From Halocafeteria seosinensis (lineage: Eukaryota; Sar; Bigyra; Bicosoecida), in NCBI GenBank assembly GCA_001687465.1, contig LVLI01000154.1:1-64000 (forward strand): a stretch of DNA of 64,000 nt, in the 5' to 3' direction. Below, in pieces: positions 4,218 to 64,000 of this stretch. Positions within the stretch are counted from its first letter, which is position 1; each line of letters starts with the position of its first letter. The translations under genes were made by a program, and so were the position numbers. The notes beneath the pieces were generated by a model, which was given only the letters and a program-made list of their open reading frames with translations, had not been told where the DNA came from and did no database searches.

Positions 4218-4581
4218 ATGAACACAAGGCAAGAAGAGCAACGGGAACGAGTGTGTTGTGGTAATGTGATTTGGAAAGCATAGCAAAGAAACGGGTATCG
4301 TCTGTATTCTATTCATTTCGGATTAGACGCTTTTACTTTATACGAAAGCGGGATCGAACATCTATTGCGTTTGCGTGCTACACATCATCAAAGGGGCAAG
4401 AATAGCTCATGTCGTCTCTACGGACTCGGTATTTCCTTGTAACAGTAAGAAAAGACCTTTCCTTGGACGAAATAGCGAATATCATACCCTTATTCCCTCC
4501 TATCTCTTCCTTACCTCCTGTTCACTCAGCAAGGAAGAAGTAGCATGAAATCGAACCAGATGATATGACCATCTATTTCCA
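4218..4581. other. Intergenic region between convergent genes
   Basis: 364 bp between the stop of the FnIII protein and the stop of the PDK1 gene on the opposite strand. It should hold both 3' UTRs. I see no ORF of note and no repeat. Confidence 0.6.
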
Positions 4582-15200: not shown

Positions 15201-18200
15201 AGAAGACGGTGATAACTTGCCTAATATAGTGTCGAGTCGACAATTGGGTTTCAAGGAAGACTACAGACTCGGTCGCATCCCGATTGAGCATCTGTTGGCT
15301 CTGGCGACAGACGTTGAGGACTGTGGAGTTGGTTTTCGGGAAGGAGTGCTCATTACACATTACGCAAGCATATCAAGAGAGTGGCGACGGCGTTGCTCCA
15401 CCTTATTTTCGAGTCCTTTCTCACCTCAACTTAGTGAAATACAGAGCATGATTGAAGACGCAGAAGCGAGTCCCGTCGATTTTAGTGAAGACGTGGCTTC
15501 CTTAAGGGACGAGGTTTTGAAAGCTGCTAAATGGTTGTTATGCGTCCGGTCCGTCATCAGTTTGCTTCATGCTGCTGGTAATGGGGCGACTACGCACGAG
15601 CAAGCCCGAGACATGAAAAACCCTGGTAACACGACAAACAAGGCCACTCTTGCAAACAGTATTGAAGGGGCCCAACGGAAAGCTGGTTCGGATAAGAGTA
15701 AACTGAAGGCGGATTCGCTGTCGTTAGCGAAGGAAGCTATCACTTGCATGAAGGACGGTGGTTGTCCACGGATGCCGAAAGAGCTTGTTCCGTTGGAGAA
15801 GCTCGTTGGCACGGCTGAGGAATGGAGAAAGAAGGTGCGAGAGTGTATCCGAGTTGTAGACACAGACGAGAATGCCGTCGAACTTTGCTTGCAACTCCTT
15901 AGTGAGGGAGCTTGTATTCCTGTGGCTATGAGAGAGTATGGCATGTTGCTAAGTGAGCTGAGGGTTCGGTGGTGGTCTAGACGAGCCCAACAGTTACTAG
16001 AGGACTCTGAACCGTCCTTGCAGAGTCTGAAACGATGTTTAGAGGAACTCGAGGCTATAAAGGTAGCCGCTAAGAACATGCAAACTCATGCATATTCAAG
16101 TGACGCAGCATGCCTTGCTGCAGCATCCGGGTTGGATAAGGAATTGGGGCTGGACAAGGTTCTCCGAGAGAAATACCGAGAGAAGGGTCTCCTAGTTAAG
16201 GATAAAGCTGAAGAAGGTACATCGCAGGAGCAAGCCGCAGGTGAAGCTTCCTCAGTTAGTTCCCAAGTCGAGCAGCCGGAAGGTGGCGCGGAGGCACAGT
16301 TTCAACCAACAGAGAACACCGCTGAGGACGGGCCATCTACCAGAGGATCAAGGCGCACTGGGCGCAGGATAGAGGCGGATGGGGAAGTGCAAAGCTCTGG
16401 GGCTAGGAAAGAGGGTGACAGCGAGTCCAGATCGAGAGATAGATCAAGCAAGGAGGAGGTCTCTTTGGATATGAGTGATGCTTCATGGTGGCTCGCTCCT
16501 GTGGAAGAGTACCGCGTTTCAGATAGAATCGAACGTTGCGAACATTGGATTAAACAAGCTTCAAGAGCGCTGCAAACCAGACCTAAAATGGAAACTGTCA
16601 ACGAGTTGCTTGAGGGGCGCTCGAGCTGGGTGACCGATATGGACCCATATATCCGGCGTTTGGAAGTGCTAAAAAAAGAAGGTGAAGGATGGTTTTATTC
16701 GGCTGTACCGGTCCTCTCTAGAGTCGCAAGTTGCTTAGAGGAAGTGCCTTTTACAGGGCGTTCCCGTCTTCCTCCCCCAAATGGCGTTATACTGTCTTAC
16801 AGGAAGCTATTAGAGGAATACAGGTCCACACTCCAACTAAGTGTAGTACCCTCAGCAGAATTGTTGCTGCAGAAGGCCCAAAGTAGATGCGATACTTGGC
16901 TTCGCACTGTAGCATCGGCATTTGATAGCGCGTTTGATGACCATCAGCTAAATCCATCTCCATTTTTGGAGTTAGCGCGGCGTTATGCAAGGTCCACCAG
17001 TACGAGTAAGACTGCAAATAAAGGAGCAAGGTCAAAGAAAAAAGGTTCGCGGAAGAAGTCCAGTAAGAAAAAGGATGCACCAATCGAATCGGAGCTCGAA
17101 AATTTACAGCACAGTAGAGTATGTGATACATGGGTCATGGGTATCGAAGTGGAGGAATTAGCAGAGGCCGCCAGTGGAGATTATGTAGTAGAGAACGCTC
17201 CCATACATTTCGGACGGGAGCTGCGATTGGACGAAATTTTGCCTGCTATTGAAGGAGAGTTGCAAGGGCAAGATGCACAGCAAGACTCCTTGAGCAAGGA
17301 GGTACACACGCTCCTGAATGAGCTGTCACTCTCCCAATCGGAGGAAGAGGTTCAAGCGACGAGGTCTAAGGAGGAGGTCATCCGAAAGCTTGCTGGCTAC
17401 TCTCACCATATTCCTGTAAATGTGGGTGCTGCGCAAGCTTGGCTCTACAAACACCTTAATTTGAGCTCCGTATGGAAAGCCTACCTTCTTGCGAAATTAA
17501 GGCAGCATAACCTGTTTTCAGAAGTGAGCTCTTTTTCTCCTACAGAGGTTTTAAGATGCTTTTTGGAACAAAGCAGAACGAGAAAACTCTTACTTGAAAT
17601 TTCCCGTCTGAAGGCGAATATATGTGTTTCTTCGAACGAAGAAACTGTAGTGTCCTGCGCCGTAGCATTTCATGACTGGAATTGCCGTGTTGTTGACATT
17701 GTTGATAAATTCGACCGAGTCATTGCCGTCATTGAAAAGAACTGCAACCAATTCCACACACTATTGAGTAGTCCGTTTGACGGCGACTCAGAAGGCGGCT
17801 CTGAAGATGGAAGCATAGGAGAGGGAGAGGATGAAAACAGTAGCATGCCAAGGTCAAGGAGAACAAGAAGGAAATCGCAAAAATATGAAGAAGCTTTGGA
17901 ATTTTTGCGTCCTGGTTCCAACCCGAAATCTACTGCGGGACAGGATACACGCACGGACGATTCTCGCGAGGAGGCAGTGAGTCAACAGACTAATGGAGGT
18001 GCTTTAAGATCTTTGTGTTCTTCTCTACGATCGTTGCCACAGCAACAAGTAGAGGTCCTCACAGCACTAGAAGGTATTTCCTCTGTGTGCGACATTACTG
18101 AACAGAAGTTCCGAGACTTCTCCTTGGGATGGATGGAAGTCTCTCGAGCGTTCGAGACTCAACCTCTGGAGTTAAGTCCTGTGTCAGCAAGTGAATCCGA

Positions 18201-21200
18201 GAAGGAAAGTATCAAAAAGCTTTCGCTCGGCGACATTACCCTTGAAGCGATAGAGAAAGAAACCATTGATGATTTACTTTCAGATGGAGAGTCTGTGCTG
18301 TCACGCATCCAAAACTATCTGAATTGGGATCGTTTTGATGTAGATGAGAATCCTCAGATGACTAGGCTCAGTTCTTTAGAACAGCACTACGACACCTGGG
18401 AGACAACTGTATGGAAACGTCTGGCGTCAACACCAGGGCAAGATTCCTCGAATACACAAGGGGTAAATGGTTTGTCTTTGCCTTTTGTATTTGCTCTAAC
18501 GGCTGTTGGCGTGGAGTTGAAGACATTTGACTCTGTGTTTATGACTCTACAAACTGGACTACGAAGATTCTTTTCCTGGGCAAGGCGGTGCGCGCTGATG
18601 ATGGATAGAGCGCAGCTTCAATCCCTACTTTCAACGAAGAAATGGCGATCAAACGATCAGACCGGTATTTCCCAGATGGAGTTTGAAAAACATGTGATGC
18701 TTCGGTTTTCTGATACTTCTCCGAATGACCATACCTCTGAACGTACTTTAGCAAACTTACAGAAACTGAGGGACTATTATGATCGCTATATTCCGTTCAC
18801 TTTGGTCTTTGGGGAGCAACTAAAACAGGAAACGGAGAAGGCAGAACAATGGTTTGAAACCGTGAGCAAAACTGGTTTACAGAGTGGTGAAGAGATTGAC
18901 AAGAAACTTGTCCAGTCATTGCTTCGTCAAGGACCAGAGTTGTTGGTGGCATGTGAATCGTCGATGAATTTGTTAAGGAATGCTACACTTCCGCAGTGCA
19001 TTTGTCGACGGCCATGGAGTGGGTCGATGCTACAATGTGGAAGCTGCAAAATGTTTTTTCATAGTGACTGCTTCAATCGAACTAAAGATGAGTGCCAAAC
19101 ACTTCTGGAACGAAGCAAGAACCGAACTCGTGCCTTCAACAGACTAATCACCGGGAAAAATTCGTTCGAAGCGGTGAAAGGGATACTTCCAGAAGGCGAG
19201 TCGAATACAGAGAATGGAGCTCTGGAAGACTGGAAATGTCCCGAATGTTTAGCGCATGCTGGCATAAATGCCGCGATTGTGAAGTGCTGCTGGAGTTTGA
19301 GCCTGCTTCATTCTGAAATCAAGGAGGAAAGGGTTCAGCTCACCCGAGGTCCGCCTTCCAACCAAAGTTTACGTGACTCTGTTGAAAGCACTGTTGCAGC
19401 GTCCCAAGCAGCAGTCACTGAGAACGACGCCAGTAAAGCCACCGAAAAATTGCATCAAGTAAGCACGACCTCTTCTCTAGATTGGCTGTGCTGCGTGGAG
19501 GACGTTCTATCTGCTTTCTCGAAGGCCCCCTCGAGTGACTCACCACATTACGAAAACGTTTGTCGTGGACAGCGGTGGTTGCTCGAGGAAGAGGAGGATG
19601 CAAAGCACGGTGAAACCACTGCTCCTGTTGGGCATAAAGATTCTTCGATTGTATCTCCCCAACACATTGAGACGCTGATCGCCACAGGAGCCCGACGTGG
19701 AGTTTACTCTCTTAATGGTAATGGTATGAGCTCTGGAGAGACGTCAACGGCTTCAGCTGATTCCATTTCAGAGGATGCGATCTTATGGTCCGTTCTTGGA
19801 CACCAAGTATTGTTCGATAACCCACCCCGGTTTATCTCCCGTCTAGCTCACATCGTGAAAGTTAAAAAAGAAGAAGACGGGTCCACGGTAAGAGCCTGGG
19901 AGAATACCATAACGCATGCTATGGAAGGTTTCCATGACGCTGGTCGCGAGGAGAGGAGTTCAAGGATAGCAGAAGATGCCGGTATCAAAGCAGTTGCTTT
20001 CGTCGGAAATGAGGTGCGCGAAGCGGACTATCCTCAAAAGATTGCCCATGTGCTAAGGTGTTTGCGACTACTAGTGTGGTATACACGATTCCGGGATAGC
20101 CTGAAGTCGTGCGTGGATGAAAGAGAGATCCACAGGTGTCTTTTGTCTGCAATTGTTTTCCGCCTACCGTCGGTGTATTCCGGGCCGTTTACGCCATTTG
20201 ACCCCCTACATAATTTAAGAGGCAGCTCCATGTCTGCTAATTGGGATACTCTGCTGTCAAATCATACCTTCCTTCTATCCATTGGCTCAGTGCTATGCCA
20301 GGGCATGTGGTGGAGGCAAGAAGCGAAGCCGCTTCTACGCATGACAGGCCCGGTTTCAGTTAAGAAATATCAGAACTTGTTGATCCGTGCTAGGAATATA
20401 CCTATGCTACTTGCCGAGGAGCCTCAAGTAGAAAGCGTTGTCTTGGATGGCGGTCAGGCATACTGCATATGCGGTGGACTAAGCGATGGTCGCTTTATGA
20501 TTGCTTGTGAGTATTCCAGTCCTCATTGTAAACAATGGTACCACGCAGAATGTGTGGGTGTGCCTGTCCCTGAAACTAATGTGCCTTCTCCCGGCGAAAC
20601 CGTCGCGTCGAACATCCGCTCAGGGTTGCGTGCGAGCCATCGCATAATGCCTTCCGGGAATGAAAGCGACAAGTCTCAAGGCACCGACTTGCAAGAGGAA
20701 ATCGAGCAAGAGGACTTTAAGTGCCCAGTTTGTGCACTGGCTCACAAAGAAAACTACAAATATAAAGGAGCCCTTCCCCAGGAGTCCATCAGACTACTTC
20801 AGCAGTCTTTAGGCCCTGATGAAGTACATGAAGGGATGGGACATGCCAACGCCGCCAATTCGGGAAGTATACCGAACAAGAAGATCGGTTGTTGCTATGC
20901 CGCTGCCCAAGGTGTTGGTGTAAACGCTATGCCGTCCCGCCCTCAACCTTATTGCTTTCTACCACTCAGTGTCGGAATGAGCGAAGCAGCAGAGAAGAAT
21001 TCTCGCATTACTGTTGACGCTGGATCCGGTGCTCGTGAAAGAGTAGTTGTTGCGTTACCGTTCAATAATACTTGGCTGTCGCAATGCGCTCAGCCAGACG
21101 AAGGCACCTCTTGTTCCGTTTTGCAAAGGAACTATGGTCTTGTTCCGAACACTAAGAAGTTTTCCGAGCATCTCCGGCAGGCGCTTAGGGCGTCTGATCC

Positions 21201-21624
21201 ATCCTCTACTCGAAACAGTCTTCTCGACGTCGACGTATATTCCGATGGTGCACTGTTTCATATGATAAGGTCTCTTCAGCATGACCCCAGCTTCAGGAGC
21301 TTTGAGCCCTCTGACGCGGGTAAGCTGCTTGAAGAACTGGTGGAGACGGCAAAGTCGAGGAATGAGACAACTCTGTGGGTAGCCGGGGTCAGCGATGCTT
21401 GTGCTAGTCATTCGTCTACGATTGGGGGGGATGCCATTAACGACAGCATCCAACAGGGAATTATCGAGTACATTTACCATGTTGGTGGAGCAGATGCCGC
21501 ACTAGCTTACTGCGAAGGGTTGAAACAGTCTCGTCTGCCGGCATCCAAGAGGGGTAACGGTGAAACCGATGAGACCCCGACGTCTTCATCCAGTGAACGG
21601 CCGAAACGCCGTCGGCTTTCCTAG
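12203..21624 (+). CDS. Giant ELM2-like / PLU-1-like / double PHD-finger chromatin protein
   Basis: Three exons, 12203..12842, 12913..13101 and 13175..21624 (introns 70 and 73 nt), 3092 aa. An ELM2-like region covers about residues 225-365 and spans both introns: KIRTLFQPEWPTDAAEIPDI, EEERWDPS, then LAFLHDCDYDVPRAKLQL, the typical helical end of ELM2. The middle 1500 residues are helical with repeated short Trp-containing helices (EEWRKKVREC, CEHWIKQASRAL, CDTWLRTVASAF) resembling the PLU-1 region of KDM5 demethylases. PHD finger 1 lies at about 2218-2300 (CICRRPWSGSMLQCGSCKMF, FHSDC, WKCPEC). PHD finger 2 lies at about 2707-2792 (YCICGGLSDG, QWYHAECVGVP, FKCPVC). The C-terminus ends with a basic tail, ERPKRRRLS. 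No JmjN, ARID or JmjC is present, so it is not a demethylase. ELM2 usually recruits histone deacetylases and PHD fingers read histone tails, so a scaffold or corepressor role is inferred. Confidence 0.8.
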
Positions 21625-46700: not shown

Positions 46701-49700
46701 AATACGACTTATTGGAGGATGTCGCTTGCATGCTGGGGAGACAGCTCTTCCGGGAAAATTTGACTGCGAGGACAGACAGGACTACGCTGCTTAGGCTGCT
46801 GAAGGGAGGCGCAGCCTGCGAAGGAATTCTTAATATTCAGCGTAGCGAACTGTGCCTTGATCGAGTTTTTGAAATGGTAGGGACCGAGCTTTCGTCAATT
46901 CAAAATGTATTAATGAAAGGGCATAAATGGCTTCCAATTGACGGCTCTGTTTTGAAGGTTCCCAGGTCCTCATCGATCATGTTTTCACAGAACTGTGAAA
47001 GTACTTCGATGAGTCATAAGTCGTATTTGCAAGGACTATTCAGACCCATGGCACTAACTAATTGCGATAGTAGGGAGTTTCTTCAGCTGTGCTTCACGGC
47101 ACTCGGAAGTTCTTGCCCTTGCCAAGCCGCTAATAAAGTTATAACCACTCTTGACGCTCTCGAAGGTTCTGGAATTATCTCCGCAAAATCGTTTAGTCGC
47201 GAGGCAGTGATTGCAAACGCGTGGAGGAGCGCTCGCGGTGGTTTCTCTTTTGCTGATAATTTGTGCACTGTGGAAGATCATATGGTTCGCCTTTTTCTCC
47301 AGATCGTTGAGCACCAGTTTGTACAAGGGACGGGAACTCATGACGATATACTGCTTATACAGAGCATTCTACGCGGAGGCGACCCAGAAGGTAGACACGT
47401 AGAGGAGAGTTCGTTCAGTGAACAATTATATATAATCATGGGTATAATGGTTTCAATGAAGATGAACCCGGAAGTGTCATTCATCGTTTCGGTGATGCAG
47501 CTTATTTCGCTTATCCAGCACCACTCATCCGTGGTCCTTAGTGGTCCTCATTTCTCAGGGAAAACTTCGGTTTGCGAAATTGCTCAGAAAGCACTCACCA
47601 TGTTTTCGTCGCGCAGTTTACGTACTTTACCAGTAGCGGTTCATAGGGCGGAACGGGAGTATCCGTGTCCGTCTGGGGTAGATGCGTCTCGTAACGAGGT
47701 GTGGCTCGCATATGATTACCCGTCAGATGAGGAGCTACAGACGCTAAATCTGCGGGAATCTGCAAATTGGAGACAGGTGGTGGAAGTCGGTTCCCTCGAC
47801 GGACTTGATCCTTATTTGCTGTCTTCTGTGGGTATACTACCTGTTCTCGAAGGTGTGCAAGTGACATGGAGGGCCATTTTGCGGAGCCGGTTGCATGCAT
47901 CCATGCATCCATTCGTAGTGCGTTGGTACTCTTCCATATACCAACTTCTGAGCTCCGTCACTGGTGGTCTCCTAGATTATATTGATCTAAATCCCGTCCT
48001 GTTCGCAGATTTTCCGGGGAAGGTGACGGTTACGGCAAACGTTGTAAGATTCTTTTTTGTCGGTCTGAGATTCGTAGAGTCGAGTTTTGCATCCACTGGA
48101 GATACACACAGCCCTTGTTCTACCAGGCAGGCCCCCATGGCTGTCGCTCCAGACAGTTCCTTCGTTGACGACGTGGAGCATACGATTGAAAACCTAAAGT
48201 CAGGAACAGATCCATGCCCTACCGCTAGTCTTGAGACGGACGGAGATATGCTAAACTTTTTGCCAAGTTCGGTTGCTGGGGAAGTGATCCACACTTGCTG
48301 TGTCTTCGGAATCATCTGGGGCTTTCGTGGTGCACTAGAGTCTGAGGCCCAGGTTGGAGTTGTGGAACATTGGATAAGAGCGCGGTATAGTGGGCTAGAA
48401 CTACAATCTCGCGAGGGCCAGAGCTCGGCCGTGCATGCTTCAGAACGGGAGAACGAGAAAGAGTTCCAAGACAAACTCCGATGCTTATTCTCATTGACTG
48501 CTGCTGGTGTGACCGAGCCAGAGGAAGCCGATGTATCAACGATTCTCCGCCGACTGTGTCGCGATCCTCGGAAGGAACTACCGGAAAGACTGAATGCTCC
48601 GATTCTACCTCGGACAGGATCTGTTTATGACTACGTCCCTCAGCTATCGATGGACCAAAATGATAAAGATGCAAGCGGCCTCTTTGCCTCCCACAAGCAG
48701 CCGTCCTTCTCCTCGGTTATAGAATCTCCCTGGATCAATTCACTGTATGTCACCTGGTCGAATCCTCTACGTCAAGGCGACATAAGGGCGGATCACCCGT
48801 TCCCTCTCTTCCACTCCAATTCAATTCTTATTCCCGCACCCTCTGTGATGCGGTCACTGCGCATATGCTACGAATTGCTCAAGCAAGATGAGCACCTATT
48901 GCTACATGGCCCTTCAAACTCTGGGACTTCGTCCTTAATAGATATGCTGCGCATGCTGGCGACCTCTGGATCAAAGTTGCGCAGCTTGACCGAGTTTTCG
49001 CAAATGGAGGACTTGGCTTCTGACCGAGTATGCATCAGCTGTGGAGGTTTCGCGACGCTCACAGCGGAAACCCTGAAGAGTCAGCTATATAACAGGCGAC
49101 AACTAGAGCAAACTGTGACTCCTAAGATTCAGAGACCTGCGGCGCTGTTCATTGAGGATTTGAATTTAGAATGGAACAAATTCGCGACTACGTCAGTAAG
49201 TAACTTGCTTCGTCAGGTGGGTGGTTGGAGCCGCTTTCCTCAAGATGATGGACAGTCAGGTTCTGCTGTTAGAGAAGCAAACCTATGGGAAGGCGTTAGC
49301 TTGTTCATGACCACACGCCAGCGTCTTATAGACCTCAAGGGACTTATTGGGGCGACTGCGTTAGTTCACTCGGAGGGATTACAGTCAGCAGAGCTGGATC
49401 ACATCTACGAGTGTAAGCTCGTTAGTTTGCAGGACCCTATCAGGGACGAGCATGCGGCTACTGCAGCAAACTACCTTGTTACTCTTACTGGGCTGTTGGG
49501 TGAATCCCTCCAGTTTTTAGGAACTCCAGCTGCAACTCACGGTTGTCTCGCGATAGCTGAGGAGCTTAAGCGCGTCGAGTTTCTTGATGGTCTGAATTCC
49601 GATGTTGAGAACAATCACGAACTCTTCTTGGTTTTTCTGTTTCATGAGACGCTGCGATCACTTGGTGATCGTTTCAAACTCAGTGATGATAGGAATGACT

Positions 49701-52700
49701 GGTTGGTTACCAGGATTTCTAAAGCGTTCCGCAGAGTCTATTCTTACGACGTCTCCGATCTGATAGGCCACAATCCTGAACTCTCTCAGTGCATACCTGA
49801 TTCAAGGGAGGATAGCCGGAGCAAATTTCTAAAGAATCTCACGTTTGGGTTCTCGTACGCTGAACATGGAGGATCTTGCATTTATTCTCCATTGCAGCTG
49901 CAAAACATCGAAGACGACACCATGTATCGGTTAACGAAGGATCTTACATGTCGGAGCAGCTCGCTGTCGCACGTTCTACGCAAATTTGTTTATGCCATGA
50001 ATGGAAGTTGGAAGTCCTGTGTTGTTTACCACTGGGACACGCTGCTGAGCGAGAGCTGCGTCACCTCTGCTGCGAAGCAGATGAGCAAAGACTGTTTGCA
50101 CGTCCCATCTTGCCACGAGATGCACTCGCCGGAGACGGTCGAGATAGGTAACTTGCCCCTGGTCCAAACTTTGAAATCCGCTATTTTAAAGAGTTTGGAT
50201 TGTCAGAACGGGACTCTGTTGGTAGCAAACACGCACAGACTTTGTCCGGCTTGCCGCCAGCAACTACTTTTTGTCATCAACCAATTATTGGTGCATGGGG
50301 ACATCCTGAGGATTTTTGGAGCCGCCGATATCAGTTTCCTGCTGGCTAAGACAGAGCTGCAACAAAGAAACATATTCGAAGCCACCCTTGGTACAATGAG
50401 TAACCATGAAGAAAGCAGAAATCAAGAAGGGGCTTACTTAAGCTATGCTTTCTTGGAAGGGAAGGGTGAGGCCTATACTAAGAAGGGTGGTGTTACTTTG
50501 CGATCAGTCTTTTCGCAACAGCGGAGTGCTCCAGAAGATGATGCGTCCGCAGAAGTGCAGTTGCAGTGCTTAACCCGCTATATACAAGAGCATTGCCAAC
50601 TATTTATAATTTCAGCGTCTGATTCCGTGGATGATATATTCACGGGACCAGATTCTCCGGGGGCTAATATGGAGCATTTATGCCAACCGGTGTTGAAAAT
50701 ATCTCATGTTCTTGCTGTTGATTGTGACGAGGAAGAGAACTTAGAAACTCTCTTAGCCAGTTATTATACGGCCAAAGTCAGTCAAGGTTTTCAGCTTCCT
50801 CCCGAACGAACGACCATTGACTTTTTCATTCAATTAAGAAAAGAGGTCTGTGTCGTTGCCGATTCCGGTAGAACGCCTGCTCTTTCCGATGCTACTGAAG
50901 GTTTGAGCATGACTGGCCGGATAATGAGGGCCCTAGATGCGTCTTCGCTTTATCAAACTCTTGTTGCTGTAAGTTTAGCTTGTTTTCTTGGGATTGTTTC
51001 TTTTTACTTTTATTTGGTTTGCTTGCAGCAAGAGACAAGCGATTGTGACGTAAAGACGATGCAGCACTGTCATTCGTTAATCATTGCGTCCTGTGGTTCT
51101 TTCCTGTGCCGAGTATCGGCACTAAGGAGAGGGGAATTCTTCAAGTTGATCCACAGGCTGATTGGTAGTTTTTTTGACCGAGAGACAATAAGTATGAATG
51201 GAGTATTGGATTCCTTGTCCGGGACTTTGTTTCCGCTTTGCCCGGATAACGACGGACTGAGGCTTTATCTGTCACTATCTACTCTGATAAGCGAGAACGT
51301 TCACTGGATTAGGGAGGCTATTTGCACCGAGAAAATCTCTTGCGAATTAGCATGCATAGCTCTTGCTGTGTCGCAAAGTTCCAAGTGGCCACTCCTTATC
51401 GATGAAAATGTAAGCCCTTGTGTCTGCTGCGGTTTCTTGCTTAACCTCTTCAGTACTTTCCTTCAATTATACAGCATTCGGCCGCTCAGCTAATTAGATG
51501 TAGAGAGCAGGGGAGAAACATTTGCTGGCTCACTGCCGATTGTTCAGCGGAAGACATGTCAAGAACAGCTATTAGTTGCCTAAAAGAGGGCAGGGCACTG
51601 GTTATAACCCTTAGTCAATACATGGACACATTCGCCGTTTCAGAGCACATTGAGGACCTTTCCGACCAGGAGGTAAGGTATATTCGAAAATACATTGCTT
51701 AGAAGTTCCCAAGAAATCTGCTTTGTGTGCTGCAGATAAGTCTGCCCCGGGGAGCCCAGCAACCGCTGATCCGTTACAATGGCCAGTGGGTTCCCATAAA
51801 CAGGAGCTTTAGACTGTATATTCTAAGTTACCCTGGAGCGTACCTTCCCGGCCACTGGTTTCGAAATGTACGTGTCTCTGCTTGAAGGATTTCTCCTTCG
51901 TCTGTTAACTTTGCTCTTGTTCTACGTGCAGCTCAATGTACTACGAGTGTCCAATTCGGAGTTAGCACTTTTCGAGAGATTTCATAGCGGCTTATTAGAA
52001 AAAATTTCGCAAGCCGACTTAGATCACTTGAGAAGAACCATGGAGAGTGTTTGGGATGAATTGCTAAAGCTAAAACTTTCAACCACCGAAAGCGTCGCTC
52101 CCTCAGCGGAATTCTTCAATACGCTAAAGCTTCGAGAGTCTGCAGTCTCTTATCCGGTGTTATCATCGGCCCTCTATCCGCAGTTTCAATTCCTATGCAG
52201 TGCATTATGTGCCACCAGAGATGACATCTCTCACGGCATATCATTTCTACCATTACTATCAAAATGCTTGAGTGATTTGCAGCAAGATTTGGGTGCAACT
52301 CAGGTCCTCCCGAAAGGCATAAGCGAGAGCATATTGAAATCTTGGTGTACTGTCCTTTTAAAACGATTCGACGCGTTAGCGTTTCGCTCTCTATCAACCC
52401 GGAGAGAAGTAGCGTTATGGCGCCTTCATGCTATGTTGGTGATAGGAATCAGTCGCCGCCAACACCATACAGAGCAGTTATTGGCTAGGGTGATTCTAGA
52501 AGCATTACATAGTGCCCATAGACGCTATTGCTGCAACACGAACGTTTGCTGTGGCCTCCGCGAGAACAGTTACCTTCAGTATTTCCAGCAGACAGCACTC
52601 ATGGTTTGTGATAGTGTTTGCCCGGCACAGCTAGAAGAAGTAACTCTGAATTGTACCGTCGACCTCCAGGGACTCCAGAAGGGGATCAAGATGACCATTG

Positions 52701-55700
52701 ATCAGGTTTGCAACCTACTTTATACAACTGAAGCGGATATCGATACAGTTGCTAGAAGTCTACTGTTGGTTGCCATTGGGCCGGCTACGATAGCTTTTGG
52801 GATCCTGTTTAGAGACGTTCGTCAACGCTTCGGGTATGACAGCATGGAACTTAAAATTCTACGTGAGAAATGGAAAGAATTGCTAGATCTCTTTAGTACA
52901 GACAACTTGAATGTACTCGTTAGCTGGAGAACTAACCCGGAATATTATAGTGGAAGCGAAGAAGTGCTTCTGGGACGTTTTCCTCAACTCCAAATTGTAT
53001 GCCACGTATCCGGCAGCAACAGTTCGCCTCATTGCCATATAACAGTAGAAGAGCGAAACGCGAACGATGATGAATTGCCTTCCTGCACTTTTTCCCATCA
53101 AGTACTTGCCCCGTTCGTGGAAGAACGTGATCTGCTCTCCGTAGCGGAGAGTATATGGAACCGCAACCGATCGGGCGTTGATGTCGAAAGCTGCGGAGAG
53201 AATGTTACACGGTGGATCGCAGACGATGCAACAGGGAATGGAAGAACGTATCGCTCCACAATTTGCTACGCTGAAGCGGAGACCTCAAAAAAATTAATCA
53301 GCGACCTGCTCTCAGCCTTATCCAAGAAGGAGGGGAGACGAGCGATAATCCTCTCAGTAGACCGTCTGACGCTACATAAGTTAAAGGGGGCGTTTCAGCA
53401 GTGCGCTCGTGAAGGTAGCTGGCTAATTCTTGATGTCTGTATGGAACTTCCTGCTATAAGTTCTGAGCTGTGCCAGCTGGAACACATACTCAGAGGCGAT
53501 GTGCCGGAACTAGTCCAGGAAACTCCTCACACAGATTTCCATGTGTTTTTCGTGGTTAACTGTAGGCAACGTCAACACAGCAATTCGTTACACTCGTTCT
53601 CATCGGTGATATCCCTAAGACACCCGTTGGTGTCTGCCGGGGTACTCCAAGATACTCACTGGAACCATTCGAGTTTAACGTTCCGTGGAATATTGTGGAA
53701 TCTGTCCATATTAGCGCAGGACGATTGGGAAAACCGGTCGTCTGATACACCACTGCTACCAAGTTCGCTGGAAGAGTTCGAGCCTCGAGTCAACAAACTT
53801 CTGCAAGCGATGAAGATAATCGTAGCTTTGGTACTGTCGCATTGTCCGCTCACCGTGATAGAATATGTCACTAACGTACTTTGCTGGAGGATGCTGTACG
53901 GTGCCCGGTGTGTGTACAAGTTGGGAAAATCATATATGGACTTCGGAGATACGCATGACTCGTCAAAATTCCCTGAAATTCTTCGCTCAATATTCTATTA
54001 CAGCTTGGGCTCCTTTGTTCATTTCGTCCCTCGGAAAGATATTTTATCGCTTCAGAAAGGGATGTATGTTATCTCTAGACTTCCTGAGCTGTTGCTAGAA
54101 GGGAAAACACCTTCCTTAAATGAGAACTGGCTTAAACATGCCTCGCTCGCGTTTGTTCGGCCTGGAATTCAGGTAATGGATTTCAACTCTAGCGCGCAAG
54201 AGGAAAAGACAAGATGGAACTCCTTGGAGAAGCTTATGGAAGCTGTACAAACCACGAGTGACGGAAAAGAATTGCGGCTATGGCAGCTTTCCACAGATGC
54301 GGACCCCTATGCATCCTATCTTGACGGCCCTAAGGCATGCACACCCTCAGATGCTAGTGGCCGGCAACTCGTCGTGCGGGAATCCAACAGCACGCCGGTG
54401 GAGCCAGACGTTTCGCTTGGTCTACCTGTGCTGGTTTCTAACAACCCGTCGTTGTTACACAAGATGGAAACTAAACTTGCTCTCGCGGTGGAGTCACACA
54501 AACTGGCAGATCGAGCTGTATCTTTAATCGTAACCATTGATAAGTCACTGAACAATTTCTCAAGGGAACTAAGGAATCAGCTGCTTCAATACTCCGAATT
54601 GTTCTCACTGATTCGTCTCAGTTTGCAGCCTGTGTGCGATCACCTACGATACACTAAGAGCATCCCGTTTAGCTTTGACGCGTTACATCTTCTTTCTGGA
54701 CGAATACCCGACACATGGCTATCAGAATTGGGCTCGCACATTGCGGAGAGCAGTGGTTTTGATTTGGAATCCTTTTTTTCCCGTCTGCAAGTGTCTATTG
54801 CGATGATTCGAGAACAGTTAGCCGTTGGGAAGATGCCGCGCGTACTTTGGCTACCATTCTTCTCTTCCCCTCATCGCCTCCTTGCCAATTTGCTCCTTGA
54901 TATATGCTATCAGCAGGGTATACCTCTTCATTCCATAGCGTTTGAAACTGTTGTGTTGGAACAGGCTGTTCCTTCCTGGCTTTACACCCAAACAATCAAA
55001 AGCAATAAGTGGAGAAGATATAAAGGGAACGATTCTGCATCAGTCCATGAGCGAAAAGGGGAACGAATGAACCTTCATGCCCCTATATCGTGCAATCTGA
55101 GCACCGGAGTGATCCGCCATTTTGTCCCGGACTATGCGCAGATGCGGAGTACTGCAAAAGTGAGTAGCACTGGCAGTGTTATGAAAAAGACACTCTCCTT
55201 TCCAGGAGAAGAGTATTCCCATCTCCCTTCATCTGAGGAGCTGGAGCAACGAATGTCTCAAAGTCTCCCTTTGCGCCCGCTTCTAGAGCAATCTACTACT
55301 AACAAGGAAGTCAGCAGCCAGCAACTTTCCAGTCTTATTTTGTCAAAAGGACTTTTGTGCTATGGGCTTAAACTGAACAACTGTTACTGGAATTGTTCAA
55401 GTCACTCACTGGAACCCGCAGTGGAAGAAGAGACGAGCGATTCAAGCCCGGTTTTGTGGCTCCGGCCCATTGCCAAGGATTCGTTTGCCTCAGGCAACGA
55501 ACGTACGGTGCAGCTAGCAGAGCAAGGATCCTGTGATGCTAATGGGATACTGCACTGCCCTTGTCGAGAGAGCTCTCGGACTTACTGCTCTTTGCTAAAG
55601 TGGAGCGATTTGAACACAAAAGCGTTAGTCTTCCCAACCCACAACTCACCGGAGGAATTTGCTGCAGCTGATGCGCGATGGACGTATGGTTTTTGGGTGT

Positions 55701-55702
55701 GA
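40798..55702 (+). CDS. Dynein heavy-chain-like protein lacking stalk/MTBD and AAA1 ATP site
   Basis: Eleven exons: 40798..42105, 42174..42589, 42660..44220, 44282..45095, 45167..45225, 45288..45448, 45511..50968, 51029..51409, 51475..51672, 51736..51867 and 51932..55702. All phases fit, 4752 aa. Residues 1-1200 are a helical tail. The linker is clear (LMDIQNAWLEG, then EFPRWYFLSNSEL at about 1440). In AAA1 (about 1790-2050) the P-loop site reads GQYDLLEDV and the Walker B site reads GILNIQRSE, so neither can work. AAA2 keeps GPHFSGKTS (2118-2126). AAA3 has GPSNSGTSS (2573-2581, Lys lost) but a fair Walker B, ALFIEDLNL. AAA4 has lost its P-loop but keeps GDILRIFGAADI. Only about 90 residues (3180-3270) lie where stalk and microtubule-binding domain belong. 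AAA5 (SSKWPLLIDEN), AAA6 (FRLYILSYPG) and the C-terminal domain (LWLPFFSSPHRLL, KGLLCYGLKLNNCYW, HCPCRESSRTY) are conserved. Family identity is firm. Motor activity is very unlikely. Confidence 0.9.
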
Positions 55703-56665: not shown

Positions 56666-57778
56666 TTTAAGAGACTCTGAAACACAGACAGAAGGCGGAT
56701 AAAGACCAAACAAACCCAGGGACTGAAGTCGTTTGGGAGTCACTCCGAGGGCAACGATTTGTTTGCTGTGTTAACCCATGTGGAACTTTCCGCAGTTTGA
56801 CGGGTTATACACGTTTGGAACTTCAAGCAAGCCGTTACCCATAACAAAATGTATGACAACTTTCACGGTGATACATGAAGGAGACTACAGGGTGTAGGGA
56901 GTCGCGTTTGCGCCTGTATTATGGTAAGTACATACTCTGGACGTATAGGAACCAACAGTTGTACCAAGTACAAATTGTGGATGCAAGAAATGAGCAATAC
57001 AGTACACGTATACAGTAGGAGACTCAAGCGTGTAGGGATTCACAATTGCATTTTCATGGTGGTAAAGTACTCTGATGTATTGGAACCAGTGTTCTCCGTT
57101 TTCCGATGCATACGGGAGCTGGTCCCCCAAAACCCGCCTGGCGGTTGCAACCCCCAGTACCTAACCTAATGAGTCACACACGATGGGGCAACACCACCGC
57201 TTTACAGGACAGTTGTAGACGGACGGGCAGTTGATGAGTTATTATTGACTTCCAACCAACTTATAAACACGTAAACATCAACTACAGGTACAGCGGTACC
57301 GTGTATATCATACACATTGTTCATAGTGGTGCGACTGGTCCCTGGTCCCTGGTCCTGGTCCCCAGGTTTCCTCGCAGAAATTGCGCCGCGCCGATCGAGC
57401 AATGTCGTCCGCCTTTTCACCCCTGTTGGATCTTTCTTAGTGTGAACCTTTGGCGACAAAACACCACTGTATGAGTGGGAGTAGTTCAGCGGGTTTTGTG
57501 TCGGCAGGAAAGGGCACGTACATGTATTAGCACGTGCGAGTGCGCATAGACGACGAAACCCTGGTCTAGAATCCATAGTGGCGTTATCTGAAGGAAACCA
57601 GCCAGTGTCGTTATCGTCTTGGTCTTTCCCGTAACCTACAGAACAGAACACTACCCACCTGCTGAGTTCGAAAATTTCTCTGGCAACACTGCCTGCGGTC
57701 GTCAACTGACTCTATAAACCGCGACCAACGAACGCTACTAGATACTACTATAAACCAGGGAGATCAGGACCTATCACG
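56666..57778. other. Divergent promoter region, 1.1 kb, with diverged direct repeats
   Basis: Between the cold-shock gene (-) and the giant membrane protein (+). A block starting gagactacagggtgtaggga near 56881 recurs as gagactcaagcgtgtaggga near 57020, including the later gtactctg-cgtat-ggaacca part, as a diverged tandem copy of about 140 bp. A short ggtccctggtccctggtcct run lies at about 57338. A 167-codon frame on the minus strand (57202-57705) has no recognisable domain and is not called. Confidence 0.5.
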
Positions 57779-60700
57779 ATGCTACACTGTAAGCGATTCG
57801 AGTGCAGAGGAAGAGCACTGTACTCCTCTCATTTAGAAACGACGATTCTAGGGTCCTTGCTAGTTGCTTGCTTGCTTCTGTGTGCCCAGGAAGCGGAAGC
57901 CAGCGAAATTGATCTGGAACATGAGCCATGCATAGAGGAAGATGACGCCAATAGTCTGTTACTCCAGACGTGTGACATCGACTGGAATTACAGAGGTTAT
58001 CAAAATGATGATTATATAACGTTGAAAAAAAATCAAGAATTCGACGGGCAGAACTATACGTTCAGTCTACATGGTGTGGAAGCATTTGATGGTCTATTTA
58101 GGGTCCATGGCGATGTTGACTCGTTCGATGAAGCCCCTCTGATAAGGAACGTCCATACTATCAAAGGAGAGGCTGCTGGGAGTGAGGGATTTATCGTTCA
58201 AGCTGGACAAAGGTTTTTACAGATATACTTCTGCGGTAATTCGGGTGGTAAACTCAATTACGGTAGCGGAGGAATTGCTGGTAGGGACAGCGGGTATGCG
58301 TCGGGGCAAGTTCTTATTGAAGATTGCTATTTTACTGGATCGATGACCGACAATGATGCCGGAGGGATCATTGGATTGTATGCCGGAAACAATGGAGGCA
58401 CAGTAAACGTATCCAACTGCTATAACACTGCTGATACCGCAATGTGGTGTGGGGGAATATGCGGAGCGCGGGCGGGTAACGGCGAGGATTCTCAGGTGTA
58501 CATTAAGCAATGCTACTCCACGGGACAGATAGCCGCTGACAATAGCGGTGGCATTGTTGGAGGAAAGACATATAGTGTAAACGTATCCCAATGCTTCACT
58601 ACTGGTGCAATTATGGCAGACCATACTGGAGGCATCATTGGAGCCAAAACGGCGTTTGACGGCGGTTCAGTCGAAATAAAAGATGTGTTCTCTACAGGGA
58701 ACGTACAACAGGGCACCTACGAGAGCGGTGGTATTGTTGGTGGTATAGCTCCTACAGGTAATATGTGGATAAGAAATGTATACATGCTCTCTGGTAGTGA
58801 CAGTAACTCCAGAGCATTTATGGTTGGCCAGGTTGAATCTGACAACGCGGAGATCCAGTATTCCGTACATCATTCCTCAGATGGGACTACAGACGCAGCT
58901 AAACTGGTAGACATAAATCCTGATCCTTTACACCAAGAAGGTAACTCTGGAGATCTACGTGATATCGACGGTCAGTTGTATCAGGTAAACACGCACAGCT
59001 GGAGCCATGATATCTGGCACGTTCCCGAGAATCCTGACGATGAAGGGAAAAAGTATCCACGTTTCCAATTCCAAAAAGCTTCTGAGAGCTTTTGCGGGAG
59101 AGGAAAAGTCCCTCGTTTACAAGAGGACGGGTGTCAAGACTGTCCAAGCCATCAAATATCGTCTACCGTAGACTCTCAGTGTCGTCCCTGTGGTCCTGGC
59201 GAGATCCCGACTGAGGATCAAGATGAATGCCAACGCTGTCCTCCTCATCAAGTAGCTACGAGTCTAGACAATATGTGCCAACCCTGTGGTGATGGTGAAG
59301 TGCCAAACGCAATTCAGGTCTCATGCAAGCAATGCCTGCCCTACCTAATCGCCAATTGTACAGACACCGAATGTAAACCCTGCGAAAGTGGTGCAGTTCC
59401 GAATGGGGAGCAAAACGGTTGTGAACGATGCCCTGCTCACAAAGTCGCCAATGAATCAGTTTCCGAGTGCCAGCGATGTGGAGCTGGCCATATACCCGAT
59501 GAACAACAGCATCGCTGCCAGCAATGCCTTCTTCATCAATATGCGAATATATCAGACGTTGAATGTCAGGTGTGTGGAAGGGGAAGGGTACCCTCTGAAG
59601 ACCAAAGTGAATGTAGACCGTGCTCGCCTAATGAAATCGCGAATAGTTCTGATATAAGGTGCCGTGTCTGTGAATCGCCACATATTCCTACAGCTGATCA
59701 GGGTGCTTGCATGGAGCCCTCTAGCTACCCAACCCCTTCAATATCCAGCACTCCCAGTGATAGCCCCAGTGTAACATCTTCGCCGACTGTGTCTCCTACG
59801 GCGACAGCCTCATCAAGTAGTAGTGTTTCTGGAACTGTAAGTGTAACTATGACGTCCTCCTCGAGTGGAACCGAGTCCCCGACTGCATCAAAGAGTGAAT
59901 CTGCGTCGCCAACGATGTCAAAATCCAAGACTGTCACTCCGACGACAACATCTTCTCCGACTGTGTCTCCTACGGCGACAGCCTCATCAAGTAGTAGTGT
60001 TTCTGGAACTGTAAGTGTAACTATGACGTCCTCCTCGAGTGGAACCGAGTCCCCGACTGCATCCAAGAGTGAATCTGCGTCGCCAACGATGACAAAATCC
60101 AAGACTGTCACTCCGACGACAACGCTTTCAGGAAGCCCAACATCCAGTGTAACATCTTCTCCGACTGTGTCTCCTACGGCGACAGCCTCATCAAGTAGTA
60201 GTGTTTCTGGAACTGTAAGTGTAACTATGACGTCCTCCTCGAGTGGAACCGAGTCCCCGACTGCATCCAAGAGTGAATCTGCGTCGCCAACGATGACAAA
60301 ATCCAAGACTGTCACTCCGACGACAACGCTTTCAGGAAGCCCAACATCCAGTGTAACATCTTCTCCGACTGTGTCTCCTACGGCAACAACCTCAAGAAGT
60401 CCATCCCAAACTGTTACGAACACTGCAACACTTAGTTGTTCCGCAACAGCCTTATCAAGTAGTAGTGTTTCTGGAACTGTAAGTGTAACTATGACGTCCT
60501 CCTCGAGTGAAACCGACACTCCGACTGCCTCAGACAGCGCCTCAAGAAGTCCAGCGAACCTCCAGCCTGTCATTTTCAACAATGTATCAGTATGGGAAAA
60601 CCAATCAACAAAGTGCTCCGAAAAACAACCTATTTGTATCACTTTGCTTTACCCCCCAATCGTCCGCCGTGAATACACGGAAGAAGCTGATGGTTTCGGG

Positions 60701-63700
60701 GAAGCGTTTCTTGGGGTGCGAACCACTGATGAGAGGTTGACAACGGTCGAAATACTGGCGGCTTGTGCTCCGGATCTTTCAGCTGAGAAGGACGATCAAT
60801 TCGTGTATTCATCTTGCCAGCAACAGTACCAGCAAACTGAGTCGTCCTTGGAACTTCCGGTATTTTTGAAGGCTCGATTGCTGCGAAATCAGACCTGCGG
60901 GACCGCCGAAAGGGAGTTTGTAAAATGCCGACAGCTGGAATACAAGTTAATGTGGTTTTTCACGCCTAACTCGTCCTCACTGATTAGTTCAGAGATACCC
61001 CTTCTCAGGGCAAGTTTTAAAGACAGGTTCCGCAACCCAGACGAGGACGTGAAAATAGCTATTCCTCTCAGCCTTACAGTTCAGGTGTCCAACCGAAATC
61101 TGGCATCCATCAACCAGCAACTTGTATTGAATGTGTCCGATGTACTCCGAACTGTAGAGACTGAGATGTCGGTGCAGCCGAGGATTCTATCCATCGACGT
61201 CGAACGACGCTTAACCAGCCCAAACATGACAACAAGTGTCACTCGAACAGTAACTTTGACGCTTGAAAGCAACCAAGAGTACAGGTGGAAAGCCTCTTCC
61301 ACATTAAGGGATTTAGTTACCCTTCCATCATCTGGGAGCTCGGGAGAGCGCGGCAAGTCCATTCAGCACACTGTTCATTTTGATGTCTTACATGCTCCGC
61401 ATGGGAGCATTGATTCCACCATCGAGGTGCAGGTGTCACCTATCGGTCTTAACAATTGGAAAATTATGAGGATTTCCACCTCCATTACAGTAAAACAAGG
61501 AAGTATAGAGTCGCCTACAAAAAAGCTGCTTGTCCAGAAAAGCATTCATGGAGACCCAGAGAGACGAGAAATTCTGGTGTCAAACACTGGAGACTTGGAA
61601 GTCCAATGGCGTGCCCGGCTTTTGGCAAGTACCGAGATGGGACACAAGGAACTCTCTTATGCAGAATTGCGTAGGTTTTGGGTACAACCAACGACACTCT
61701 CGTCCATGAGCGGTGGAACCCTTCCACCAAACAAACAACAGCAAACGCTTGTGCGGATGGAAATGATCCCTAAGTTTGTCAGCTCTGGCCTTTTCGAAGG
61801 GTGGGTAGTCTTCGAGACCGACGCTAGTGATGCTTCACCGCAGTCGTTCTCGAACAAGATCCCTCAGATTGCTTCAAAGACCTTGTTTGGCAAGCAACTT
61901 TGGGTACAGCTGAGGCTCCTGGTAACTTCGGTGTTTGTTTGTCCATCATTCCCTGTTCAAACTGACGTGCTTCCCTTTGAACGAGTCTCTACTGAATGGA
62001 AAGTACTGAACGTTGACACCCAACCATTGCTCGTATTTGCGAACAGTTTCCATATGAATTTTGCGGAAAATGGAAACGGATCGATCGTGCAATTTAGTTT
62101 CGCAAATGGCATGCAAACGGCACTGCTAGCAAAGGATCGAACTTTTGGAAACTGGCTCACTCTTTCGCCCACGGCAGTTACCATAGCACCCAAGAGCACC
62201 CGCATTTTCCGCGCATCGTTAAGGTACCCATCGAAGCGTTTAAGAATAAAAAATGTTTCTCAGGACTTTGTTGCAGCGTCTTATACTACCACATTCAGGT
62301 TTAGGCTTTCTGTACTCACTTGGGAGAAATGGCGTAGCCTTGGCTTATCAGCGCAAAGTGGGGATGACAGAACGCTGTCGTTAGCGACATCCTTCTTACC
62401 AGGAAGTGCTACCCCTGTTCACTCATCAGTAATCGCAGCGAATAATCAGACCGAGATCGGAAGAGGAGTTGACGTGCATATTCGTCTGAGCGATGTTTTT
62501 GGGACTCCCGGGGCCAAGGCTATCAACCATTGCTCCAAACTTCCTCCATTCAGCACAAACCGGTTGCCGTGCTTGAATGTAGAGATGCACCCTCTGAACG
62601 CCGACCTTGATCGATCCTCAATCAAATTACGGTTCCCGCCACGTACACAAAACGCTCGCAGGATTCGCAGCTTTTCGTTTTCTGTCATGTTTCAGGTCCA
62701 GGGAGACGCCCAAATAAGTGTTCGTTTAAACAATGTGTCTATCACAGGTTCTCCCCTTGTGCTCCAAACGAAGACAGTGAGTTGCCATGAACACGAAGTT
62801 CCAAATGCCAGAGGGACGAAGTGCTTGTGTGAAGCAGGCCGATACCGCATTCCCATGAACCAGCATGTTGGTTCCCATTGTGTTCCATGCGAGGAAGGAC
62901 GTTTCCAACCAGAGCCATCCAACATAGAGCAATGCCCACTTTGCCCTTCTGATCAGTTTTCAACACCCGGAAGTAAAAGGTGTTATCCCTGTCCAGTGAG
63001 TGGATTCAAATGCGTCAAGGGGAAGTTACTGATGGAGGATGGCTTTTGGTGCGAAGTTTGTTCCTCAAACAGTGAAACAGGAGCGTCTAATGAGACAGTA
63101 CGTCGATTAATATTGAGCAGGCTCCAAAGTTTTGGTGATATACAAATGCACCGCTGTAATCCTGAGAAAGCATGCGTCATCAATCAAACTAGGTTCCTGA
63201 CTGAATGCAAGAGAGGACACAAGGGCCCACTATGCAGTGTTTGCGAGGACGGGTACGTGAAAACAGACGGTACATGTCTTGTTTGCAATCAAAGTGAACG
63301 AGCTACCATACTCTTATCGCTGTGGGTCATCGTTGAGTTCGCGATCGTGGCAGGACTGAACATCGATGAGTCAAAGTCCAAAACCTCGACGGGGAACAGG
63401 ACTAGCAATGCAGACGCGAGAACTGCTAGCAACGTCCATAAAATGAAATCGTCATCATTTGAATCACCAGCTGTGGCTGACAAGCTCGTGGACCAATACA
63501 AGGAGAAGAGTTCTGTGGCATACATTGAGCTGGTCGTTTTGTTGATTGTAGACTACCTACAGGTTTGCTCGATCATTGGGCGGACACAATACAATCCCTA
63601 CGCAGGCACTCTGATGTTGTTTGGAGAGGTTACAAAACTGTTTTTGATGGATCCTACCACTCTGGACTCCTTCCGATGTCTATCCCAACTTGGATTCTTT

Positions 63701-64000
63701 GCGCGTTCTCTTATCTCTCTCCTCTTTCCGTGGTTCCTCGCTGTACTATCCGTCGCACTGTATTCCCTACTGACTGCAATCCAAAATAGCCGAAAGGCAG
63801 AGACAAGGAACACTACGTGGAAGGATTCGTTCAAACCCGTAGTGACTATTATAGGGCAGATACACTCGGCCGTCACAATGACTGTCATTAGCGTTTTCGA
63901 TTTGTATCCTCATGAGATACGGGGCCACTTGAGACCAACTGCAGACTTGTCCTTTAAGATCGAGGAGCAGGAGTATCTAATCCTGGCTGGGTTGGGTGGT
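57779..64000 (+). CDS. Giant secreted/membrane protein, partial at the window edge
   Basis: An uninterrupted frame of at least 2074 codons that runs off the window. It starts with a signal sequence (TTILGSLLVACLLLCAQEAEA). Residues about 140-330 hold GLUG-like beta-helix repeats (GGIVGGKTYSVNVSQCF, GGIIGAKTAF, GGIVGGIAPTG). Residues 437-644 are at least six Cys-rich modules of the ephrin-receptor/TNFR-like type, each with CPPHQVA and CGDGEVP elements. A Ser/Thr/Pro stalk built from 58- and 68-residue repeats covers 645-930. A large beta-rich ectodomain with many N-x-S/T sites follows. A second Cys-rich block is at about 1665-1840, then hydrophobic spans: LSLWVIVEFAIVAGL, YIELVVLLIVDYLQV, FPWFLAVLSVALYSLL and PVVTIIGQIHSAVTM. 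A cell-surface receptor or adhesion protein with a multi-pass anchor is inferred. No catalytic domain is seen within the window. Confidence 0.85.
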   Translation, partial: MLHCKRFECRGRALYSSHLETTILGSLLVACLLLCAQEAEASEIDLEHEPCIEEDDANSLLLQTCDIDWNYRGYQNDDYITLKKNQEFDGQNYTFSLHGVEAFDGLFRVHGDVDSFDEAPLIRNVHTIKGEAAGSEGFIVQAGQRFLQIYFCGNSGGKLNYGSGGIAGRDSGYASGQVLIEDCYFTGSMTDNDAGGIIGLYAGNNGGTVNVSNCYNTADTAMWCGGICGARAGNGEDSQVYIKQCYSTGQIAADNSGGIVGGKTYSVNVSQCFTTGAIMADHTGGIIGAKTAFDGGSVEIKDVFSTGNVQQGTYESGGIVGGIAPTGNMWIRNVYMLSGSDSNSRAFMVGQVESDNAEIQYSVHHSSDGTTDAAKLVDINPDPLHQEGNSGDLRDIDGQLYQVNTHSWSHDIWHVPENPDDEGKKYPRFQFQKASESFCGRGKVPRLQEDGCQDCPSHQISSTVDSQCRPCGPGEIPTEDQDECQRCPPHQVATSLDNMCQPCGDGEVPNAIQVSCKQCLPYLIANCTDTECKPCESGAVPNGEQNGCERCPAHKVANESVSECQRCGAGHIPDEQQHRCQQCLLHQYANISDVECQVCGRGRVPSEDQSECRPCSPNEIANSSDIRCRVCESPHIPTADQGACMEPSSYPTPSISSTPSDSPSVTSSPTVSPTATASSSSSVSGTVSVTMTSSSSGTESPTASKSESASPTMSKSKTVTPTTTSSPTVSPTATASSSSSVSGTVSVTMTSSSSGTESPTASKSESASPTMTKSKTVTPTTTLSGSPTSSVTSSPTVSPTATASSSSSVSGTVSVTMTSSSSGTESPTASKSESASPTMTKSKTVTPTTTLSGSPTSSVTSSPTVSPTATTSRSPSQTVTNTATLSCSATALSSSSVSGTVSVTMTSSSSETDTPTASDSASRSPANLQPVIFNNVSVWENQSTKCSEKQPICITLLYPPIVRREYTEEADGFGEAFLGVRTTDERLTTVEILAACAPDLSAEKDDQFVYSSCQQQYQQTESSLELPVFLKARLLRNQTCGTAEREFVKCRQLEYKLMWFFTPNSSSLISSEIPLLRASFKDRFRNPDEDVKIAIPLSLTVQVSNRNLASINQQLVLNVSDVLRTVETEMSVQPRILSIDVERRLTSPNMTTSVTRTVTLTLESNQEYRWKASSTLRDLVTLPSSGSSGERGKSIQHTVHFDVLHAPHGSIDSTIEVQVSPIGLNNWKIMRISTSITVKQGSIESPTKKLLVQKSIHGDPERREILVSNTGDLEVQWRARLLASTEMGHKELSYAELRRFWVQPTTLSSMSGGTLPPNKQQQTLVRMEMIPKFVSSGLFEGWVVFETDASDASPQSFSNKIPQIASKTLFGKQLWVQLRLLVTSVFVCPSFPVQTDVLPFERVSTEWKVLNVDTQPLLVFANSFHMNFAENGNGSIVQFSFANGMQTALLAKDRTFGNWLTLSPTAVTIAPKSTRIFRASLRYPSKRLRIKNVSQDFVAASYTTTFRFRLSVLTWEKWRSLGLSAQSGDDRTLSLATSFLPGSATPVHSSVIAANNQTEIGRGVDVHIRLSDVFGTPGAKAINHCSKLPPFSTNRLPCLNVEMHPLNADLDRSSIKLRFPPRTQNARRIRSFSFSVMFQVQGDAQISVRLNNVSITGSPLVLQTKTVSCHEHEVPNARGTKCLCEAGRYRIPMNQHVGSHCVPCEEGRFQPEPSNIEQCPLCPSDQFSTPGSKRCYPCPVSGFKCVKGKLLMEDGFWCEVCSSNSETGASNETVRRLILSRLQSFGDIQMHRCNPEKACVINQTRFLTECKRGHKGPLCSVCEDGYVKTDGTCLVCNQSERATILLSLWVIVEFAIVAGLNIDESKSKTSTGNRTSNADARTASNVHKMKSSSFESPAVADKLVDQYKEKSSVAYIELVVLLIVDYLQVCSIIGRTQYNPYAGTLMLFGEVTKLFLMDPTTLDSFRCLSQLGFFARSLISLLFPWFLAVLSVALYSLLTAIQNSRKAETRNTTWKDSFKPVVTIIGQIHSAVTMTVISVFDLYPHEIRGHLRPTADLSFKIEEQEYLILAGLGG
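59777..60540 (+). repeat. Coding minisatellite in the Ser/Thr stalk
   Basis: The segment tcttctccgactgtgtctcc recurs at 59777 (one mismatch), 59951, 60155 and 60359, with periods of 174, 204 and 204 bp. All are multiples of 3, so the frame is kept. The longer units add a codon block for LSGSPTSSV. A truncated copy follows near 60450. Copies are nearly identical, pointing to recent unequal exchange or slippage. The mirrored minus-strand frame (59725-60642) is a by-product. Confidence 0.92.

Follow-up and report, generated by a model that had tools for sequence, protein, structure and literature searches.

A dynein heavy chain-derived gene of Halocafeteria seosinensis with no detectable stalk and degenerate AAA1 motifs

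A 64,000-nt stretch of DNA from the bicosoecid Halocafeteria seosinensis (contig LVLI01000154.1, positions 1 to 64,000 of the forward strand, assembly GCA_001687465.1), here called the window, contains a long gene related to the dynein heavy chains (DHCs). The source genome is a draft assembly of 30.6 Mb in 605 contigs. The gene (40798..55702, + strand) has 11 exons that join into 4752 codons, and its lone stop codon is terminal. Its ten GT-AG introns, 60-71 nt in length, were picked by hand to bring the open frames together, and the gene model was built from the sequence alone; the protein length agrees with that given in the initial annotation of this DNA. The longest exon, 5458 nt, is open throughout. 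Codon usage is of no help on coding status because the genome is almost without codon bias, and a codon usage test was accordingly uninformative. A second, stalk-bearing version of the gene was not found in the genome, where other DHCs and a single weak spot on C64 account for every other match of 8.7 bits or more. As judged from its sequence, this is a real gene, present once in the assembly, with a DHC-derived predicted product. Coordinates of the gene and of its features are in Table 1.

A profile built from 15 DHCs of the same genome was used to anchor the domain blocks of the protein. Five collinear blocks are found, corresponding to the linker, AAA1, AAA3, AAA5 and the C-terminus, with a total of 208 bits. 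These collinear matches make the protein a descendant of a dynein heavy chain, though a strongly diverged one. In a profile search of the whole genome AAA_6 (PF12774) reaches 38.2 bits for this gene. The AAA5 family itself, PF12781, has no match in the protein of this gene, and AAA6 is represented only by a weak profile match at residues 3978-4042 (6.1 bits, E 2.6e-4). Ninety public DHCs were retrieved with the linker; the best-scoring match over this region has 78 bits and 20% identity.

The initial annotation had proposed that this protein lacks the stalk and the microtubule-binding domain (MTBD). Thirty-seven ordinary DHCs served as controls: the genome has 17 DHCs besides this one, of which 15 were taken, and 22 were hand-picked from the 90 public ones. 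The two remaining chains of the genome, C225 and C398, have split reading frames and were excluded from the alignments; both have MT and AAA_9. The distance from the end of AAA3 to the middle of AAA5 is 509 residues in the window protein, as opposed to 696-907 residues in 37 of 37 controls. The anchors of this interval are profile-based and good to a few residues, and the distance is independent of the position of AAA4. Thus at least 187 residues are missing between AAA3 and AAA5 relative to the controls. The interval aligns with the stalk profile no better than shuffled sequences do (z -0.5, with 40 of 60 shuffles as good). With the same profile, the scores of three divergent DHCs taken as controls greatly exceed those of their shuffles (8 each). 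The initial annotation also saw no heptad coiled coil, and this holds: a home-made heptad score is 0.80 for the interval, as opposed to 1.32-1.68 in all 37 controls. Elsewhere in the protein, the highest heptad score of any block is 1.38, near residue 1164, where the linker starts.

Searches with the domain families give the same picture. PF12777 (stalk/MTBD) is absent from the window and is found at 17 places genome-wide at E <= 0.001; PF12777 and PF12781 match the same 17 contigs at this threshold, and the gene in the window is not among them. The stalk domain (MT) and AAA_9 are retained in each of the remaining 17 DHCs of the genome, and a stalk is present in 90 of the 90 public DHCs. C52 and C225 have the lowest AAA_9 scores among the DHCs of the genome, and in both of these the stalk and AAA5 are kept.

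Two ways in which a stalk might have been overlooked were considered and rejected. A hidden stalk exon would require approximately 900 nt, which cannot fit in the 60-nt intron at 50969-51028, the only one here, or in the 350-nt stretch around it; nothing is hidden in the intron, as had been stated initially. A stalk relocated within the protein is also not seen, as the best stalk-profile pieces, at residues 1053-1070 and 1659-1703, are below 0 bits. It is improbable as well that an assembly or sequencing deletion, or a chimera, removed stalk-coding DNA from a diverged DHC. The genome is a draft in 605 contigs and the gene model is taken wholly from this assembly, but the reading frame is preserved, an intron lies at the spot, no remnant of a coil is present on either side, and the stalks of the 17 other DHCs are intact in the same assembly. 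In addition, the loss of AAA1 described below makes a motor unlikely whether or not DNA was deleted. Judged from sequence, the stalk is thus missing, whichever placement of the cut is chosen. The protein offers neither the space nor a signal for a stalk of coiled coil, and nothing is hidden in the intron, so that canonical microtubule binding by it is very unlikely, which is in line with the initial annotation.

Changes in the ATPase motifs were found in addition to the loss of the stalk. A search for the Walker A pattern G....GK[ST] over the 4752 residues gives one match, GPHFSGKT at residues 2118-2125, which aligns with AAA2. The AAA1 P-loop is GPAGTGKT or GPAGTGKS in 15 of 15 DHCs examined from the same genome. 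In the window protein GPAGTGKT is aligned to LVTTGQYD, and the Walker B sequence CFDEFNRI falls opposite a stretch in which the acidic pair is missing; thus both AAA1 motifs are lost. The sequence LVTTGQYDLLED, at residue 1832 (base 46685), is found in this AAA1 region. The AAA3 Walker A is degenerate (GPSNSGTS, with the lysine lost), with an acidic Walker B-like sequence, FIEDLN, retained. As both Walker motifs of AAA1 are gone and AAA2 alone has an intact P-loop, the protein is somewhat better explained as a DHC-derived pseudo-motor than otherwise. Having no catalytic site and no grip on the microtubule, it would have lost ATP-driven motility twice over. The initial description as a dynein ring minus the stalk thus stands for the stalk but is incomplete, as it does not take the loss of the AAA1 motifs into account.

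The site of the cut was read by eye. The two landmark sequences are at the positions previously noted, NLETLLASYY at residue 3183 (base 50738) and MQHCHSLIIASCGSFL at residue 3270 (base 51059), and 77 residues separate them. On inspection, TTIDFFIQLRKE looks like the end of AAA4 and MQHCHSLIIASCGSFL like the start of AAA5. A Walker B-like stretch (approximately residues 3007-3054) is put at the expected position of AAA4 by HMMER, by our own alignment script and by MAFFT alike. Aligning a fragment to full-length DHCs put its second half in the wrong place, and short homologues were therefore used with MAFFT. AAA5 stands out clearly in its later part (z 8.9, with 0 of 100 shuffles as good), and AAA5 is certain only from approximately residue 3350; a z of 6.8 for the whole first half of AAA5 derives from its later part. 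An earlier script, in which gaps cost little, yielded scattered matches and was abandoned.

Several results weigh against the reading as a maintained, DHC-derived pseudo-motor that has lost its stalk at this site. The AAA4 alignment overall equals that of shuffled sequence (z -0.1, with 31 of 60 shuffles as good). An AAA5 start at MQHC (51059) is no better than shuffles (z -1.2, 87 of 100 as good), and neither is a shorter piece of the AAA5-start profile (z -0.5, 68 of 100). When one large deletion is allowed freely, our alignment script places it after residue 3351 in three of three settings, and this deletion removes profile positions 1936-2280, i.e., nearly all of the stalk (1905-2205) together with the start of AAA5. 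Global alignment of the interval with hhalign failed (probability 0.04%). The AlphaFold check that had been suggested was run and was uninformative, with a pLDDT of 48 for a 26-row alignment and of 36 for a single sequence. The 26-row model has long helices at approximately residues 3118-3146, 3160-3197 and 3205-3250, where the block pLDDT is 30-59, and these are not trusted; in a trial alignment, stalk columns fell on the end of AAA4, where AlphaFold drew these helices. Since neither AAA4 nor the named AAA5 start is better than shuffles, the exact cut point is a reading by eye. Thus the absence of the stalk and MTBD in the initial annotation is upheld by the interval length and the lack of a stalk-profile signal, and the identities of its landmarks, AAA4 and a conserved AAA5 start, are not borne out. 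A shortening or loss of the buttress, a hairpin from AAA5, also appears plausible by eye but is not supported by alignment; the buttress interval is exactly 128 residues in 32 of 37 controls, and the corresponding stretch of the window protein is not alignable (z -0.25).

These results also bear on whether the ring is complete. AAA4 may have been lost or replaced along with the stalk, such that residues 2844-3350 would be largely another domain and no six-module ring would be formed. An undetectable AAA4 and AAA5 start, a weak AAA6 and the lack of a confident AlphaFold fold would fit such a protein, but the agreement of three methods on the same Walker B-like stretch at the place expected for AAA4 does not, and an incomplete ring is considered unlikely, with an appreciable chance nonetheless.

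Also against the main reading is the divergence of the protein. In a linker/AAA1 tree of 33 of the 37 DHCs and the window protein (four were dropped as too short), its branch is 6.95, as opposed to a median of 0.51, which also fits relaxed selection; the protein was not placed in the tree because the branch is too long. No orthologue was recognised among word-sharing candidates in a database of 5.8 billion proteins. None was found in two contig collections, where exact short peptides detect close relatives only and relatives of the organism are perhaps not included. Thus the search for orthologues with the same deletion, also suggested initially, was made and none was recognised. A doomed DHC paralogue, expressed or not, that drifts without selection and is still open by chance would account for the very long branch, the lost P-loop motifs of AAA1 and AAA3, the lost stalk and the lack of a recognised orthologue. 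A comparable idea has been published for DNHD1, in an excerpt that speaks of a "ghost gene" perhaps becoming a pseudogene (PMC8754002). However the 4752 codons without an internal stop, the open 5458-nt exon and the ten GT-AG introns are not expected of such a gene, as divergence of this extent without any stop would need long selection for an open frame. A doomed paralogue is thus regarded as rather unlikely. Overall, the observation made in the initial annotation is partly confirmed and its interpretation partly supported.

If the pseudo-motor reading is followed, the protein is probably a structural part rather than a motor, as far as its motifs indicate. AAA1 hydrolysis may have been lost first, whereupon the stalk would have become functionless and shrunk to a short loop. 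The tail, the linker and the remaining ring would be retained as a static scaffold, with partners bound through the tail, and an ATP in AAA2 may keep the ring together. According to an excerpt of PMC12338079, the AAA2 site of canonical dynein retains its ATP and does not hydrolyse it. The likeliest place for such a scaffold is perhaps the axoneme or basal body, which is favoured because of the large dynein set in the genome and a weak CCDC81-type HU match at the N-terminus. Among the dyneins of this set are some that cluster with cytoplasmic dynein 1 and some with a named outer-arm alpha chain, the classes being read from named neighbours. The HU-CCDC81_euk_2 match is the only one of this family found in the genome and is under the cut-off (E 0.02). 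In Tetrahymena, a CCDC81 protein has been proposed to belong to the axonemal inner junction (excerpt of PMC11961760), and the HU match, if genuine, would tie the window protein to axonemal proteins of the CCDC81 type. Tentatively, and with less confidence than for a pseudo-motor as such, the protein may be a protist DHC that has turned into a permanent ciliary or basal-body scaffold, stalkless and AAA1-dead, with nucleotide only at AAA2 and a CCDC81-like HU domain at the N-terminus.

If a long open gene without a stalk and an AAA1 ATPase is maintained, the body of a dynein would be reusable as a structural part. The protein would then also offer a naturally occurring ring for testing how AAA1 catalysis is connected with stalk retention, and it is relevant to the function of orphan relatives such as DNHD1. 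The interest is mainly conditional on orthologues or expression confirming that the gene is maintained.

Table 1. Features of the dynein-derived gene in the window (nt positions in the window; residues of the predicted protein)
Feature	Position (nt)	Strand	Residues	Basis and remarks
Whole gene, exons 1-6	40798-42105, 42174-42589, 42660-44220, 44282-45095, 45167-45225, 45288-45448	+		hand-chosen splice sites
Whole gene, exons 7-11	45511-50968, 51029-51409, 51475-51672, 51736-51867, 51932-55702	+		hand-chosen splice sites
Possible HU-CCDC81_euk_2 domain	41287..41415	+	164-206	sub-threshold, 17.5 bits (cut-off 26.1); lead only
Linker (DHC_N2)	44504..45814	+	1170-1541	spans three introns; PF08393 70.7 and 32.9 bits on two open frames (cut-off 31.9); own-genome profile 111.8 bits
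AAA1 region to AAA2 start	46010..47608	+	1607-2139	AAA_6 PF12774 34.6 bits (cut-off 25.2); Walker A and B lost
AAA2 Walker A, GPHFSGKT	47543..47566	+	2118-2125	sole intact P-loop, aligned to AAA2
AAA3	48434..49720	+	2415-2843	AAA_7 PF12775 24.5 bits, just under cut-off 25.8; own-genome profile 35 bits, collinear
Probable degenerate AAA4	49940..50845	+	2917-3218	boundaries by eye; Walker B area 3022-3054 matches expected place weakly (HMMER E 0.03)
By-eye site of missing stalk	50846..51058	+	3219-3269	51 residues (311-385 in 37 ordinary DHCs, nearly the same anchors); holds the intron; without statistical support
Intron GTAAGT...TTGCAG	50969..51028	+		60 nt, in frame, without stop; sequence and gene model
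AAA5	51302..51831	+	3351-3484	spans two introns; profile E 4e-11
Dynein C-terminal domain (Dynein_C)	54452..54964	+	4337-4507	PF18199 49.4 bits (cut-off 25.7)

Two other long open frames are found in the window on the + strand. One, at 13147-21624, encodes 2825 aa that include a PLU-1-like domain as well as a PHD finger. The other, at 57710-64000, has 2097 codons and continues beyond the window; it contains Ser/Thr/Pro-rich and Cys-rich repeats and has no Pfam match at E <= 0.001.

Canonical DHCs, whether cytoplasmic, intraflagellar transport or axonemal, have the same order of linker, AAA1, AAA3, AAA5 and C-terminal domain as the window protein, which differs from them in that no stalk/MTBD is detected and the AAA1 catalytic motifs are lost. 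DNHD1 is also dynein-derived, and its human form is 4753 aa in length (excerpt of PMC9916431) as compared with 4752 here. It has been called an orphan as well as a ghost gene in the excerpt of PMC8754002 mentioned above. However a figure legend credits DNHD1 with an MTBD (PMC9749982, in the part available), and none of the 90 public hits retrieved with the linker bears the name DNHD1.

The initial annotation knew of no described stalkless DHC, and this statement needs qualifying. In a 2025 paper DNAH12 is described, in the excerpt available, as being without an MTBD and as needed to recruit DNAH1 and DNALI1 (PMC11949491). Apart from this claim, no DHC without a stalk was found in the literature on stalkless or MTBD-less dynein, covered mostly as titles and abstracts and exclusive of the main dynein phylogeny paper; a passage of PMC7215579 concerns crystal density, and PMC4579568 does not point to such a chain by its title or abstract. 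In two deposited DNAH12 chains from solved axonemes, 8j07_g1 and 9fqr_PW (3960 aa), positions 2507-2819 match a 301-aa stalk query over its residues 4-300, with E values of 1.2e-53 and 1.8e-54, respectively. Because these chains match the stalk query nearly end to end, DNAH12 is not regarded as a true stalkless precedent, and its published lack of an MTBD looks like a matter of annotation or isoform. Thus DNAH12 possesses the stalk stretch that is absent from the window protein. Relative to the stalk-bearing DHCs of the public set (90 of 90) and of its own genome (17 of 17), the predicted protein is a new variant within the DHC superfamily.
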